This document shows positions 10,236 to 16,110 of a DNA stretch of 64,000 bases, piece by piece. The position numbers and the translations under genes were made by a program. The stretch is taken from contig NZ_QMIE01000002.1 in NCBI RefSeq assembly GCF_007625075.1, positions 311,873 through 375,872 of the forward strand, read 5' to 3'. The notes beneath the pieces were generated by a model that had not been told where the DNA came from, ran no database searches, and was given only the letters and a program-made list of their open reading frames with translations. This DNA is from Oceanidesulfovibrio indonesiensis. GTDB taxonomy: Bacteria; Desulfobacterota; Desulfovibrionia; Desulfovibrionales; Desulfovibrionaceae. The first letter of the stretch is position 1. Each line of letters begins with the position of its first letter.

Positions 10236-11315
10236 TCAGCCGCAGGTCCCCCCGGAGCGTTTGCTGCGGAGTCCAAGGTACGCGAGCACCAAGAACGCGA
10301 GAGCGGTCAGATGCTCGAACAGGCCGGCCCCCTCCTCTATATCTCCGCCGGCCCAAACGCCGCCCATGTTTACGGATGCATAGATGGCGTCGGCTGCCAG
10401 ACCCATGAGCAGGGCGCAGATCACCAGGGCGGCGAGGTAGGCTGCGGTCTCCCGCTTGCCAAGGATGCGCGCCGTGACCATCAGGGAGGCAATGTTCGTA
10501 GCCGGTCCGGCCAGCAGGAAAACGAGCGCCGCTCCTGGAGAAAGCCCCTGCCAGGCCAATGCCGCGGCCAGTGGCGTGGATGCTGTGGCGCATACGTAGA
10601 TGGGCAGCGACAAGGCCAGGGCCAGCAGGTAGCCGCCCCAGCGTCCGCCTACATGGTCCTGAATGAACCCCGGCGGCAGGAAAACCGTCATGGCGCCGGC
10701 CACGGCCACCCCTATGAGAAACCACGGCCCCACATCTCCGGCAAGATCCACAAACCCATAACGCATGCCTTTTACGATCCTGGACTTGAGGCCCGGGCGG
10801 CTGACTGCCTGACCTTGCCCAGAGGGCTCAGCGACGGGTGGAGCCATGGGCAGCAGCGTGGGCTTCGGCGGATCGGGCCTCGCCGTCGCATTCACGGCCA
10901 GCCCGGCGGCGATGGCCGATACAACCGCAGCAACAGGCCGCAGCACGGCCATGAGCGGATCGAGCATGACCCACGTGACGGCCACCGAATCCACGCCGGT
11001 CTCCGGCGTGGCGGTGAGAAACGATGCGGCGGCGCCTTTGCTCGCCCCCTTGTCTCGCAAACCCGCGACCGCGGGCAAAGTGCTGCAGCTTCAAAGGGGA
11101 AGCGGCGCGCCGATGAGCGACGCGATAAGTACGGGGCGCGCGCCCCGGCCGCCGGCGCGGCCGCCAAGCAAGCGGCCAACAAGATCAGCAGGAATAAGCG
11201 CCTGCAGAAGCCCGGCGCCGAACATGCCCAGCAGCAGGTACGGCGCCGCCCGAGCTGTCATATCGAGGCAAGCGAGAAGCCACTCGATGAGAAAGAATGA
11301 ATTTAGTTGGAACAT
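10236..11315 (-). CDS. SO_0444/YraQ-like metal-type permease with in-frame TGA (putative selenocysteine)
   Basis: Read through a single TGA at 11091-11093, the frame encodes 359 residues of a polytopic membrane protein of the permease group that includes SO_0444 Cu/Zn efflux and ArsP/YraQ-like proteins. Family motifs lie on both sides in the same frame: LLGGRAGG, then SLIGAPLPL before the TGA, and SCSTLP with GASKGAAASFLTATPETGVDS after it. Family members normally read APLPLCSC here, so TGA (codon 75) replaces the first cysteine of the conserved CSC motif and C77 is retained. A hairpin with a GGUC apex follows at bacterial SECIS distance. Both halves are otherwise intact: further helices follow at about 205-350, and the cytoplasmic linker is Pro/Ala-rich. 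A plain nonsense mutation is the alternative. The ATG at 11315 has no ribosome site. Confidence 0.75.
11062..11075 (-). promoter_or_regulatory. SECIS-like hairpin downstream of the in-frame TGA
   Basis: On the minus strand CCCGC-GGTC-GCGGG forms a 5-bp GC stem with a GGUC apex, 15 bases after the TGA. Counting the U of UGA as 1, the apical G-U falls at positions 25-26; in the well-studied E. coli fdhF element the essential G-U is at 23-24 (known). A U-U pair at positions 16-17 precedes the stem, comparable to the bulged U17 of fdhF. It is a match in placement and loop; binding by SelB is not shown. Confidence 0.55.
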
Positions 11316-11324
11316 CAAACTAAA
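11302..11324 (-). promoter_or_regulatory. Inverted repeat overlapping the permease start codon
   Basis: TTTAGTT (11302-11308) and AACTAAA (11318-11324) are perfect 7-base arms with nine bases between them, and the permease ATG (11313-11315) lies in the spacer. As RNA it would hide the start codon; as DNA it could be an operator. A TATAGT on the minus strand (11324-11329) abuts it. No Shine-Dalgarno sequence is present. Confidence 0.4.
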
Positions 11325-11698
11325 CTATACCAAAAAAATGCCGAAGGGAATGGGGAGTAACGGAGCACGCAAAAATAGGGGATTTGAATCAGTGTTCGAC
11401 AGGAGGGCCAGCTGGTTCTTGCGGTTTTTGCGAATCGAACAGCACGAAACGACAACCTTTTTCGTGTGGTTCGGCGTGAATTTGTGAACTGAAAACAATT
11501 GCGTGATAATATCATTTTGCGATATGAACCAAGCGAAGCGGGGTGTCCGCCTCATACATCTTCATGTCTGGGGCGGCGTGCGGAAATGAACGGGCCAAGC
11601 GGTGGCCCAAGGCTGGGAGACTTGGCAAACCAAGCATCACCTGATCGGTTGGGATTTAATCTGGGGGAGCCATCGGGTAGAGACTCAGGGGGTTTTTC
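11325..11698 (+). other. Intergenic region with a structured leader before the chemoreceptor gene
   Basis: About 374 bases separate the divergent permease and chemoreceptor genes. The left half is AT-richer than its surroundings and shows no convincing gene. The right half can fold as RNA: GGGCCA/TGGCCC (11592-11608, 5-base loop), CTTGG/CCAAG around CAAA (11621-11634), and GGCT/AGCC (11611-11614 with 11668-11671) enclosing the latter. ATATC/GATAT (11509-11525) is a further inverted repeat. No known riboswitch consensus fits. Confidence 0.35.
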
Positions 11699-13927: not shown

Positions 13928-13988
13928 GGGAGATGGTCCTTTCTCGGGAGACTGGACAAAAGAGCGTTCGGGCAGAGATCAGCAGCTT

Positions 13989-14018
13989 TTGTGCGCGATG
14001 CTTGAAGTATGCTATGCT
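13989..14018 (+). promoter_or_regulatory. Putative promoter of the CopB-type ATPase gene
   Basis: TTGTGC (13989-13994) and TATGCT (14013-14018) are spaced by 18 bases and lie 40 bases before the ATPase start codon, after the upstream terminator. The -35 match is weak. Confidence 0.4.
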
Positions 14019-14058
14019 CGACCGACGTGCGGACAGAAAATACATCCCGAGGATCGAC

Positions 14059-16110
14059 ATGACAGCAGACACAGCACACGAGGAACATCCGGACCAGCAG
14101 CACGAGAGCCACGACCATGATCGCGGCGACGGTCACGAGTCCCACCATGCCCAGATGGCGCAGGACTTCAAACGCCGCTTCATAGTCTCCACGGCGCTCA
14201 CCGTTCCCATCGCCTACCTCTCGCCCATGCTCCGCTCTCTGCTGGGGTTGGGCGAACCGGAATGGGTGCCCGGGCGGATGTACGTTCTCTTCGCGCTCGC
14301 CACCATCATCTTTTTTTACGGCGGCATGCCGTTCCTGCGCCACGCCTGGATGGAGCTGAAGAAGCGGCAGCCAGGCATGATGACGCTCATATCCCTGGCC
14401 GTCATCGTGGCCTACGGCTACTCAGCGGCGGTCACATTCGGCCTGCCCGGAAAAGTATTCTACTGGGAACTCGCCAGCCTCATCGACATCATGCTGCTGG
14501 GCCACTACATTGAGATGCGGTCCGTGATGAGCGCCCACGGCGCCATGGAAGAACTGGCCAGGCTCGTGCCCAGCAAGGCGCACCGTCTCAAGGATGACGG
14601 CTCTACCGAGGACGTGCCGGTGAGTGAGCTGCAACCGGACGACAGGGTTCTGGTGAAACCTGGCGAGAAGGTCCCGGCCGACGGCGAGGTGGTGGACGGC
14701 CGCTCTTCGGTCAATGAGTCTCTGCTCACAGGAGAGTCCAAACCCGTAGACAAGCAGGAGGGCGAGGAGGTCATCGGCGGCTCCGTGAACGGCGAGGGCT
14801 CCCTGACCGTGCAGGTGCGGAAGACGGGCAAGGACTCCTTCCTCAACCAGGTCATGGATATGGTCTCCAAGGCGCAGGAATCCAAGTCCCGGGCGCAGTC
14901 CCTGGCGGACAAGGCCGCCATGTGGCTCACCTTTGTGGCCATTGGTTCCGGCGCAGTCACGCTCGTCCTGTGGCTCGCGCTCTCGGGCAGGGAGTTCGTC
15001 TTCGCCCTGGAACGCACGGTCACGGTGATGATCATCACCTGTCCGCATGCGCTGGGGCTTGCCATTCCGCTCGTTGTCGCCGTGTCAACGGCCATTGCCG
15101 CCAAGCAGGGCTTTCTCATTCGCAACCGCAGCCCATTTGAAATGGCCAGGAACATTCAGGCCGTGATCTTCGACAAGACCGGGACCTTGACCCAAGGCAC
15201 TTTCGCCGTGAGCGACGTCGTGTCCATGGGCGAGTTGGGCGAAGACGAACTCCTCGAACTCGCAGGCGCTGTGGAGGCCAAAAGCGAACACCCCATCGCC
15301 AAGGCCATTGCCGAATCCGCGCGTGAAAAGCTGGGGAGCCTGCCGGACGCAGGGGAGTTCGATTCCATTCCGGGACGCGGCGCCAAGGCGACGGTGGACG
15401 GCCGCGAGGTCAAGACCATCAGCCTGCGCTACGCACGGGAGGAGGGCTACGAACTCGACAAGGACGCGCTCGTTCCGTTGCTGGACGAGGGCAAGACCGT
15501 CATCGCCGTCATCGTGGATGACCGGGCCGCCGGCGTCATCGCGCTGGACGACGTGCTTTGCGAGACATCCAGGGACGCCGTAGCCAGGCTCAAGGATATG
15601 GGTCTGCAGGTGATGATGCTGACCGGCGACAATGAGAAGGTCGCTGGCCGCGTTGCCAAGGATCTGGGACTGGACGACGTGTTCGCCGACGTGGTGCCGG
15701 ACGAGAAGGCCGAGAAGGTGAAGGAAGTGCAGCAACGCGGCCTGGTGACCGCCATGGTGGGCGACGGCGTGAACGATGCGCCGGCCCTGGCCCAGGCCGA
15801 CGTTGGATTCGCAATAGGGGCGGGCACGGACGTGGCCGTGGAGACGGCGGATGTGGTCCTGGTGAAATCCAACCCCATGGACGTGGTGGAAGTGGTCATG
15901 CTTTCCAAGGAGGTTCGCCGCAAAACCGTGCAGAATCTGTTCTGGGCCACGGGCTACAACGTTGTGGCCATACCGCTGGCCGCCGGCGTGCTTGCATGGG
16001 CCGGCATCATCCTGAGCCCGGCCGTTGGCGCCATCGTCATGTCCCTGTCCACGGTCATTGTGGCTGTGAACGCCCGGCTCATGTCCGCTCCGGAGGCGGT
16101 GCAGGGATGA
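14059..16110 (+). CDS. copB: CopB-type (P1B-3) heavy-metal translocating P-type ATPase
   Basis: The 683-residue inner-membrane pump exports copper or silver ions using ATP. The ATG at 14059 has GAGGA at 14049-14053; the frame is open further upstream but without a ribosome site. The N-terminus is histidine-rich (HEEHPDQQHESHDHDRGDGH) and lacks CXXC metal domains. The channel motif is C328-P329-H330 (TCPHALGLAIP), which defines the P1B-3/CopB subgroup rather than CPC-type CopA. The remaining signatures are complete: LTGES in the actuator domain, D372 in DKTGTLT, SEHPIAKAI for nucleotide binding, MLTGDN and VGDGVNDAPAL. Eight membrane helices are expected. No copper regulator or chaperone is adjacent; the gene has its own putative promoter. 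Confidence 0.92.
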   Translation: MTADTAHEEHPDQQHESHDHDRGDGHESHHAQMAQDFKRRFIVSTALTVPIAYLSPMLRSLLGLGEPEWVPGRMYVLFALATIIFFYGGMPFLRHAWMELKKRQPGMMTLISLAVIVAYGYSAAVTFGLPGKVFYWELASLIDIMLLGHYIEMRSVMSAHGAMEELARLVPSKAHRLKDDGSTEDVPVSELQPDDRVLVKPGEKVPADGEVVDGRSSVNESLLTGESKPVDKQEGEEVIGGSVNGEGSLTVQVRKTGKDSFLNQVMDMVSKAQESKSRAQSLADKAAMWLTFVAIGSGAVTLVLWLALSGREFVFALERTVTVMIITCPHALGLAIPLVVAVSTAIAAKQGFLIRNRSPFEMARNIQAVIFDKTGTLTQGTFAVSDVVSMGELGEDELLELAGAVEAKSEHPIAKAIAESAREKLGSLPDAGEFDSIPGRGAKATVDGREVKTISLRYAREEGYELDKDALVPLLDEGKTVIAVIVDDRAAGVIALDDVLCETSRDAVARLKDMGLQVMMLTGDNEKVAGRVAKDLGLDDVFADVVPDEKAEKVKEVQQRGLVTAMVGDGVNDAPALAQADVGFAIGAGTDVAVETADVVLVKSNPMDVVEVVMLSKEVRRKTVQNLFWATGYNVVAIPLAAGVLAWAGIILSPAVGAIVMSLSTVIVAVNARLMSAPEAVQG

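Follow-up and report, generated by a model that had tools for sequence, protein, structure and literature searches.

A permease gene of Oceanidesulfovibrio indonesiensis is interrupted once, in frame, by TGA, which raises the question of whether this locus holds a broken gene or an intact selenoprotein gene. The window analysed in this study is a stretch of 64,000 nucleotides (contig NZ_QMIE01000002.1, positions 311,873 to 375,872), in which the gene occupies positions 10236-11315 of the minus strand, from an ATG at 11315-11313 to a terminal TGA at 10238-10236. When the UGA at 11091-11093 was read through, a protein of 359 amino acids was obtained, in which, by the translation and the homologue column, codon 75 is the UGA, read as selenocysteine (Sec), the first residue of a U-S-C motif. 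The original prediction had described a single TGA at 11091-11093 with family motifs on both sides in one frame; the translation confirmed both points (SLIGAPLPL before codon 75; SCSTLP and GASKGAAASF after it; a single internal TGA) and placed the gene on the minus strand, the prediction having given none. The read-through product scored 332.4 bits with the NCBIfam profile NF033936 (SO_0444 family Cu/Zn efflux; cut-off 300) and 129.7 bits with the Pfam profile ArsP_1 (PF03773; cut-off 32.3). Moreover, Cys77 (codon at 11085-11087, minus strand), the second Cys of the C/U-S-C motif, was identified from the translation and a 16-sequence alignment, and Cys242 (10590-10592, minus strand), located in YVCATASTP of the second half, was invariant in that alignment. 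The PxYxCA-type pattern around Cys242 was present in 100 of 103 homologues, and one of the remaining three had Cys with a different neighbour. On the sequence evidence, the UGA almost certainly encodes Sec, and we are highly confident of the fuller reading, in which the gene encodes an intact selenoprotein of the SO_0444 transporter family, its UGA is decoded by SelA, SelB and tRNA-Sec, and Sec75 has a putative role with soft metals.

At the start of the gene, no clear Shine-Dalgarno sequence was found before the ATG (positions 11316-11345), and TATAGTTTAG lies directly 5' of the ATG at 11315. Because of these two features, the permease transcript might be leaderless.

The codon was then considered across the family. 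In the original prediction, the TGA had been placed at the first conserved cysteine, and a search for other in-frame TGAs at this column had been proposed. The column (hereafter the CSC site) was found to be Cys in 85 and TGA in 18 of 103 distinct homologues, namely the window gene and 17 others, proportions that do not represent a frequency since TGA had been a requirement of the scan that contributed seven of the 18. The 103 were obtained from 106 parsed loci by removal of three duplicates (L081, L083 and L091, the same proteins as L067, L066 and L064 over the compared stretch), and one locus (L101) that was the window gene again had been dropped before the counts; L066 runs off the edge of its locus and is complete in L083. 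Instead of being scattered over unrelated positions, the TGA recurred at this column in a congener (L019), in a second genus of the same family (L022) and, elsewhere in the phylum, in other families. A further 48 loci, parsed later from another order, three of them repeats (L151, L152 and L172, identical to L084, L085 and L086) and with L182 not parsable, had Cys at the CSC site throughout. When all 154 parsed loci were read from codon -40 to codon +235 around the CSC site, the only further in-frame stops were TGAs of the loop that joins the two halves of the protein.

These TGAs came from several searches. Among the 67 best listed matches (E < 1e-60) from 288 genomes of the same family, at least five were flagged with TGA. 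In three of them (from the host, from its congener G215 and from G004, which belongs to a different genus) the TGA occupies the first Cys position; in L040 it lies in the loop, and in L034 it is the terminal stop. The flag in L034, and likewise those in the distant ArsP-like homologues L048-L051, marked terminal rather than internal TGAs, and these candidates were rejected. A genome-wide scan over 84,980 species, each represented by a single genome, with TGA fixed at the CSC column and PETG..D 26 residues further on, returned seven contigs, all metagenome-assembled genomes reading P-x-P-L-U-S-C-G, the record titles of which name sulfate-reducer or deltaproteobacterial lineages. Furthermore, 395 genomes of the phylum were searched. 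The loci obtained and 40 further stretches, though not every row, were parsed and added TGA-bearing loci, three of which repeat scan matches. The window gene itself reads U-S-C-S, and most of its relatives read U-S-C-G.

The recurrence bears directly on the possibility that the TGA is a sequencing or assembly error for TGC. The host assembly is indeed a draft of 330 contigs; a one-off error is nevertheless disfavoured because TGA recurs in the congener, in another genus and in other families of the phylum. The TGA column was present in many independent assemblies, including the single-contig genome G215, and the hairpin described below was stronger in TGA than in TGY genes, so that an error is given next to no probability.

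A recent nonsense mutation, with the TGA as a true stop in a decaying pseudogene, deserves only slightly more credit. Under translation table 11 the frame indeed stops after codon 74, the hairpin of the window gene taken by itself was not significant (p 0.136), and another Sec gene, L116, looks broken near its end. Against such decay, the same TGA is shared with another genus and with the congener, whose protein is 69% identical, and the codons downstream of it were constrained like the upstream ones: amino-acid identity between the window gene and the congener was 0.69 downstream and 0.64 upstream of the TGA, and downstream differences at the three codon positions were 0.25/0.14/0.48. The downstream part is thus conserved like the upstream part at the sequence level. 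In addition, the 18 Sec genes had no further stop from codon -40 to codon +235 except for the loop TGA of L067, and the stops of L116 begin at +236. In that gene (G290:C318, from a genome 84% complete), the Sec-form frame breaks at +236 codons, about 50 codons before the usual end, with several further stops, which may reflect a frameshift, an error or decay.

Selenocysteine appears to have been exchanged with cysteine repeatedly. In a tree of the 103 sequences, in which the letter of the Sec/Cys trait was made equal and the bootstrap had not settled, the state at the CSC site needed at least nine changes, and the starred branches force five changes for the 17 rows with Sec at the CSC site alone. 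One clade (support 94/90) united the window gene with L019 and L022. In a search for a link between Sec at the CSC site and loss of loop cysteines, no loop cysteines were found in the three Sec genes of this clade; over a fixed stretch of 48 loop residues, Cys was lacking in 5 of 18 Sec genes and 7 of 85 Cys genes.

A selenoprotein is expected to carry a SECIS element, and a SECIS-like hairpin, GCCCGC-GGUC-GCGGGU, was found at 11061-11076 (minus strand), 14-29 nt downstream of the UGA, with six pairs, an apical loop at 11070-11067 and 20 nt from the UGA to the loop. Four of the six pairs are forced by the codons of Pro-Ala-x-Ala-Gly, and on this ground the CSC-site hairpin is regarded as partly a by-product of the coding sequence; for the same reason, Cys homologues and synonymous-codon shuffles served as controls. 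In each gene, the best hairpin having a G as its first or second loop base was taken, the loop G being a condition of the test and not its outcome. The median of the best hairpins was -11.0 kcal/mol in the 18 Sec genes versus -2.8 in the 85 Cys homologues (p 4.8e-9), a level of -7 kcal/mol or lower was reached by 17 of 18 Sec and 16 of 85 Cys genes, and the shuffle-corrected median z was -1.85 versus 0.18 (p 1.1e-8); these p-values overstate independence, the Sec rows being related and partly drawn from the TGA-specific scan. Among genes having the four forced pairs, both coding-free pairs were formed by 7 of 10 Sec genes as against 4 of 24 Cys genes (p 0.005), and the first coding-free pair alone gave p 0.07.

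For the window gene alone, the hairpin was not exceptional against synonymous shuffles, as the p value given above indicates, and a plain fold of the 51 nt from the UGA was no better than shuffles (z 0.38), its minimum-energy structure differing from the hairpin. The evidence for the element comes from the group. In alignment A3, which holds the eight of 18 Sec genes chosen by the register of the window gene, a choice that favours pairing, all 48 of 48 cells paired, two-sided changes occurred at three of six pairs (reached by 13 of 500 shuffles), and the covariation score was 0.500 compared with 0.148 in shuffled alignments (reached by 0 of 500). In L065, for example, U-A replaces C-G and the stem is kept through two amino-acid changes (PVVTG instead of PAxAG). 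In Sec genes of other registers, the distance from UGA to loop was 17, 23 or 27 nt, and the apical loops of the 18 Sec genes were GGUC in six, GGC in six, AGUU in three and others in three. As a group, the Sec genes thus have the SECIS-like hairpin, with covariation, that is expected of selenoproteins.

The decoding machinery of the host was also sought, as the original prediction had proposed for selA, selB, selC and selD. In the host genome, tRNA-Sec (81.6 bits; anticodon TCA, by ARAGORN), selB (375.4 bits) and selA (613.5 bits) were present, and two FdhA (formate dehydrogenase) genes, each with one in-frame TGA, served as a positive control; selD was not found in the host assembly (G000). 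A second tRNA-Sec-like match of the host (47.1 bits) proved to be tRNA-Ser. The presence of selA failed to discriminate Sec from Cys forms, the gene being found in 69 of 71 carriers of the permease family that were tested. In relatives, selD was present in six of six tested, each time with one in-frame TGA. A 10.8-kb stretch of the congener around selD had no match in the host assembly beyond three stretches of 39-92 bases, and the conserved congener block rplQ-rpoA-lysR-selD-typA (names rplQ, rpoA, lysR and typA assigned by the reading frames of the congener) was without counterpart in the assembly, the stated completeness of which is 99.74%. A bacterium lacking rpoA is not expected. Because the whole flanking block, including rpoA, is missing together with selD, the absence of selD from this draft is most simply read as an assembly gap. 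Taken together, the original claim that a UGA in place of a functional Cys marks a selenoprotein was supported by tRNA-Sec, selA and selB, by the recurrence of the TGA and by the covarying hairpin.

A functional but selenium-free reading would have the UGA read by a near-cognate tRNA, such as that for Trp, or would have two proteins made by re-initiation downstream, for instance at the TTG at 11078, where a frame of 280 amino acids does start. This reading is very improbable, if a shade less so than a pseudogene, since the CSC site was Cys or TGA in all 103 distinct homologues parsed, a SECIS-like element is present, and the downstream fragment would be without the first helices of the structural model. 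Insertion of Sec remains the preferred reading.

The inter-half loop proved to hold a second TGA position. Within the phylum sample it occurred in four genomes (L084-L087), as GCGU-P, and a search of 136 genomes of the order to which these belong gave at least 16 rows flagged with TGA among the matches listed (down to E 1e-70). Fifteen of the 16 were parsed, the sixteenth being L182, and in all of them the TGA lay in the inter-half loop as GCGU-P or GCGU-G; they came from 14 genomes, with two copies in one of them. The GCGU loop permeases are L084-L087, L153, L154, L157, L160, L161, L163, L168, L175, L179, L180 and L181, and two further loci (L166 and L173) read GCGC-P at this place. A hairpin 18-19 nt after the loop UGA was kept, though the protein sequence there is poorly conserved. 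In alignment A2, which omits L040 and L067, 92.9% of cells paired, two-sided changes were found at five of seven pairs (reached by 21 of 500 shuffles), and the covariation score was 0.582 versus 0.316 in shuffled alignments (reached by 0 of 500) and at most 0.305 when the structure was slid; the GU of the apical loop was invariant. The median of these hairpins was -10.7 versus -0.1 for the sequence following CGC in 40 Cys loops (p 2.9e-7), and the shuffle-corrected median z was -1.69, with p values of single genes from 0.008 to 0.218.

One gene, L067 (2922-4022; the same protein as L081), carries two candidate Sec codons, a TGA at the CSC site and a second in the loop, the latter followed by a hairpin of eight pairs. 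In L040 (1462-2565), a loop TGA stands in GGGUGCKGSC with a weak hairpin (-4.0, p 0.57); it may be Sec, an error or decay. The window permease has no Cys in its central loop. These sequence patterns make it likely that SO_0444 transporters gained Sec at two places, at the CSC site (18 genes, the window gene among them) and, separately, in the GCGU loop with a SECIS of its own, L067 having both.

The possible function of Sec75 was considered on a structural model of the window permease. The model (pLDDT 84.2) comprised 360 residues, the last of which is false because the reference sequences of alignment A1 include terminal TGA stops, which were read as Cys at the end of some rows. Helix breaks were seen at residues 70-75 (APLPLU) and 240-242 (YVC). 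In VIA-align, ArsB (10tp) ranked first with Z 14.0 over 285 residues at 5.2 A and 10% sequence identity, a score to be read with the caveat that chance alone can give helical models a Z near 14. Below ArsB came AbgT, NaS1, CNT, VcINDY and TRAP proteins, most with Z of at least 8, and rows at or below 4.4 were mainly unrelated receptors. A sequence search of the PDB with the window permease gave no homologue, and Foldseek on the model gave no match at E 0.001. By analogy with these folds, the window permease may be an elevator-type transporter of the IT superfamily with an ArsB/CNT/VcINDY-like fold.

The following mechanism is proposed. SelA, SelB and tRNA-Sec would decode the UGA as Sec under the direction of the hairpin downstream of it, and the product would be a membrane transporter of two halves with Sec75 in place of the first Cys of CSC. 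In the model, the CSC motif is placed at the helix break of the first half and Cys242 at that of the second half, and, as in elevator-type folds, the two breaks could be hairpin tips that meet around the substrate. Sec75, Cys77 and Cys242 would then most likely form a transient soft-metal site, and the candidate substrate, Cu(I) or possibly Zn/Cd or a trivalent arsenical, would be moved out of the cell. By general chemistry, Cu(I) and other soft ions would be held more tightly by a selenolate than by a thiolate.

Among relatives, Shewanella SO_0444 is reported to be needed for growth under Zn or Cu stress, with Cu/Zn efflux inferred from mutant fitness (PMC3219624), and a Nitratiruptor member of the SO_0444 family is reported to be induced by Cd and Cu (PMC10092412). 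The window permease probably expels copper or zinc. A redox role is the less likely alternative, though it is the most probable of the competing explanations: a selenenylsulfide of U-S-C would gate or protect the pump instead of binding metal. A review holds a redox function to be likely for the majority of uncharacterised selenoproteins and includes a thioredoxin-like selenoprotein with UxC (PMC13188914); on the other side, U/C75, C77 and C242 are situated where the helices of a transporter-like model break, and Cu/Zn responses are reported for relatives. A metal-binding Sec75 is the favoured, if conjectural, role.

The neighbourhood of the gene was also inspected. On one side of the permease lie a 139-amino-acid frame without family match and dapA, and on the other a methyl-accepting chemotaxis protein followed, on the plus strand, by a copper-translocating P-type ATPase (13933-16110; TIGR01511, 612.6 bits), which is given as genomic context. 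This ATPase has a His-rich N-terminus and lies 2.6 kb from the permease on the opposite strand, with the chemotaxis receptor between them. The order dapA-frame-permease-chemotaxis gene was kept in the congener (L019) and was not found around L022 within 1.5 kb on either side. In a search of the window with Rfam, a tRNA alone matched.

Most known selenoproteins are considered to be redox proteins. A family that repeatedly swaps Cys for Sec at a likely metal site offers a natural experiment on selenium in metal handling, and the Sec and Cys versions of the permease can be compared, which opens the role of selenium in metal handling to testing. Ordinary gene finding stops at UGA, so Sec permeases are easily missed. 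The loop site would widen the SO_0444 selenoprotein family further; if the two Sec sites are true, the family includes a metal pump with selenolate ligands in two places, a loop that collects metal and the transport path itself.

With respect to known systems, the hairpins of the Sec permeases resemble the SECIS of Escherichia coli fdhF in following soon after the UGA and in the GGU-type apical loop, and L063, L067 and L069 contain GCCGCAGGUCUGCGGC. Unlike in fdhF, the distance from UGA to loop is 20 nt in the window gene, 27 nt in L063, L067 and L069, and 17 or 23 nt in others. The modelled fold is like that of ArsB and the elevator transporters of the IT superfamily overall, at the low identity given above and with no PDB sequence match. 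The ArsP_1 permeases have their Pfam domain in common with the window permease, and SaoE is more distant, its profile (NF040736) giving 126.8 bits, far below the cut-off of 325. Shewanella oneidensis SO_0444 is placed in one family with the window gene by the name of the profile NF033936.

The original prediction had known of no described selenoprotein in this permease family, a view that is now out of date. Table 1 of PMC13188914 (May 2026) lists an SO_0444 family Cu/Zn efflux transporter (NF033936; WP_014809615.1) as UxC with one Sec and as 'GenBank annotated', and its text counts the family among transporters predicted to contain Sec. No other paper joining the SO_0444 family with selenium was found in the literature searched, and no mention of the loop CGU form was found there, preprints and most subscription papers being outside the scope of both searches. 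The listed protein and the window gene agree in family, in UxC and in having one Sec. The listed form is a GenBank-annotated entry, for which no SECIS, distribution or structure is given in the parts of PMC13188914 covered here, and the GCGU loop form does not appear in that table. A Sec form of the SO_0444 family has therefore been listed before; the window gene is a well-supported further Sec member of the family, and the loop site is the newer result.
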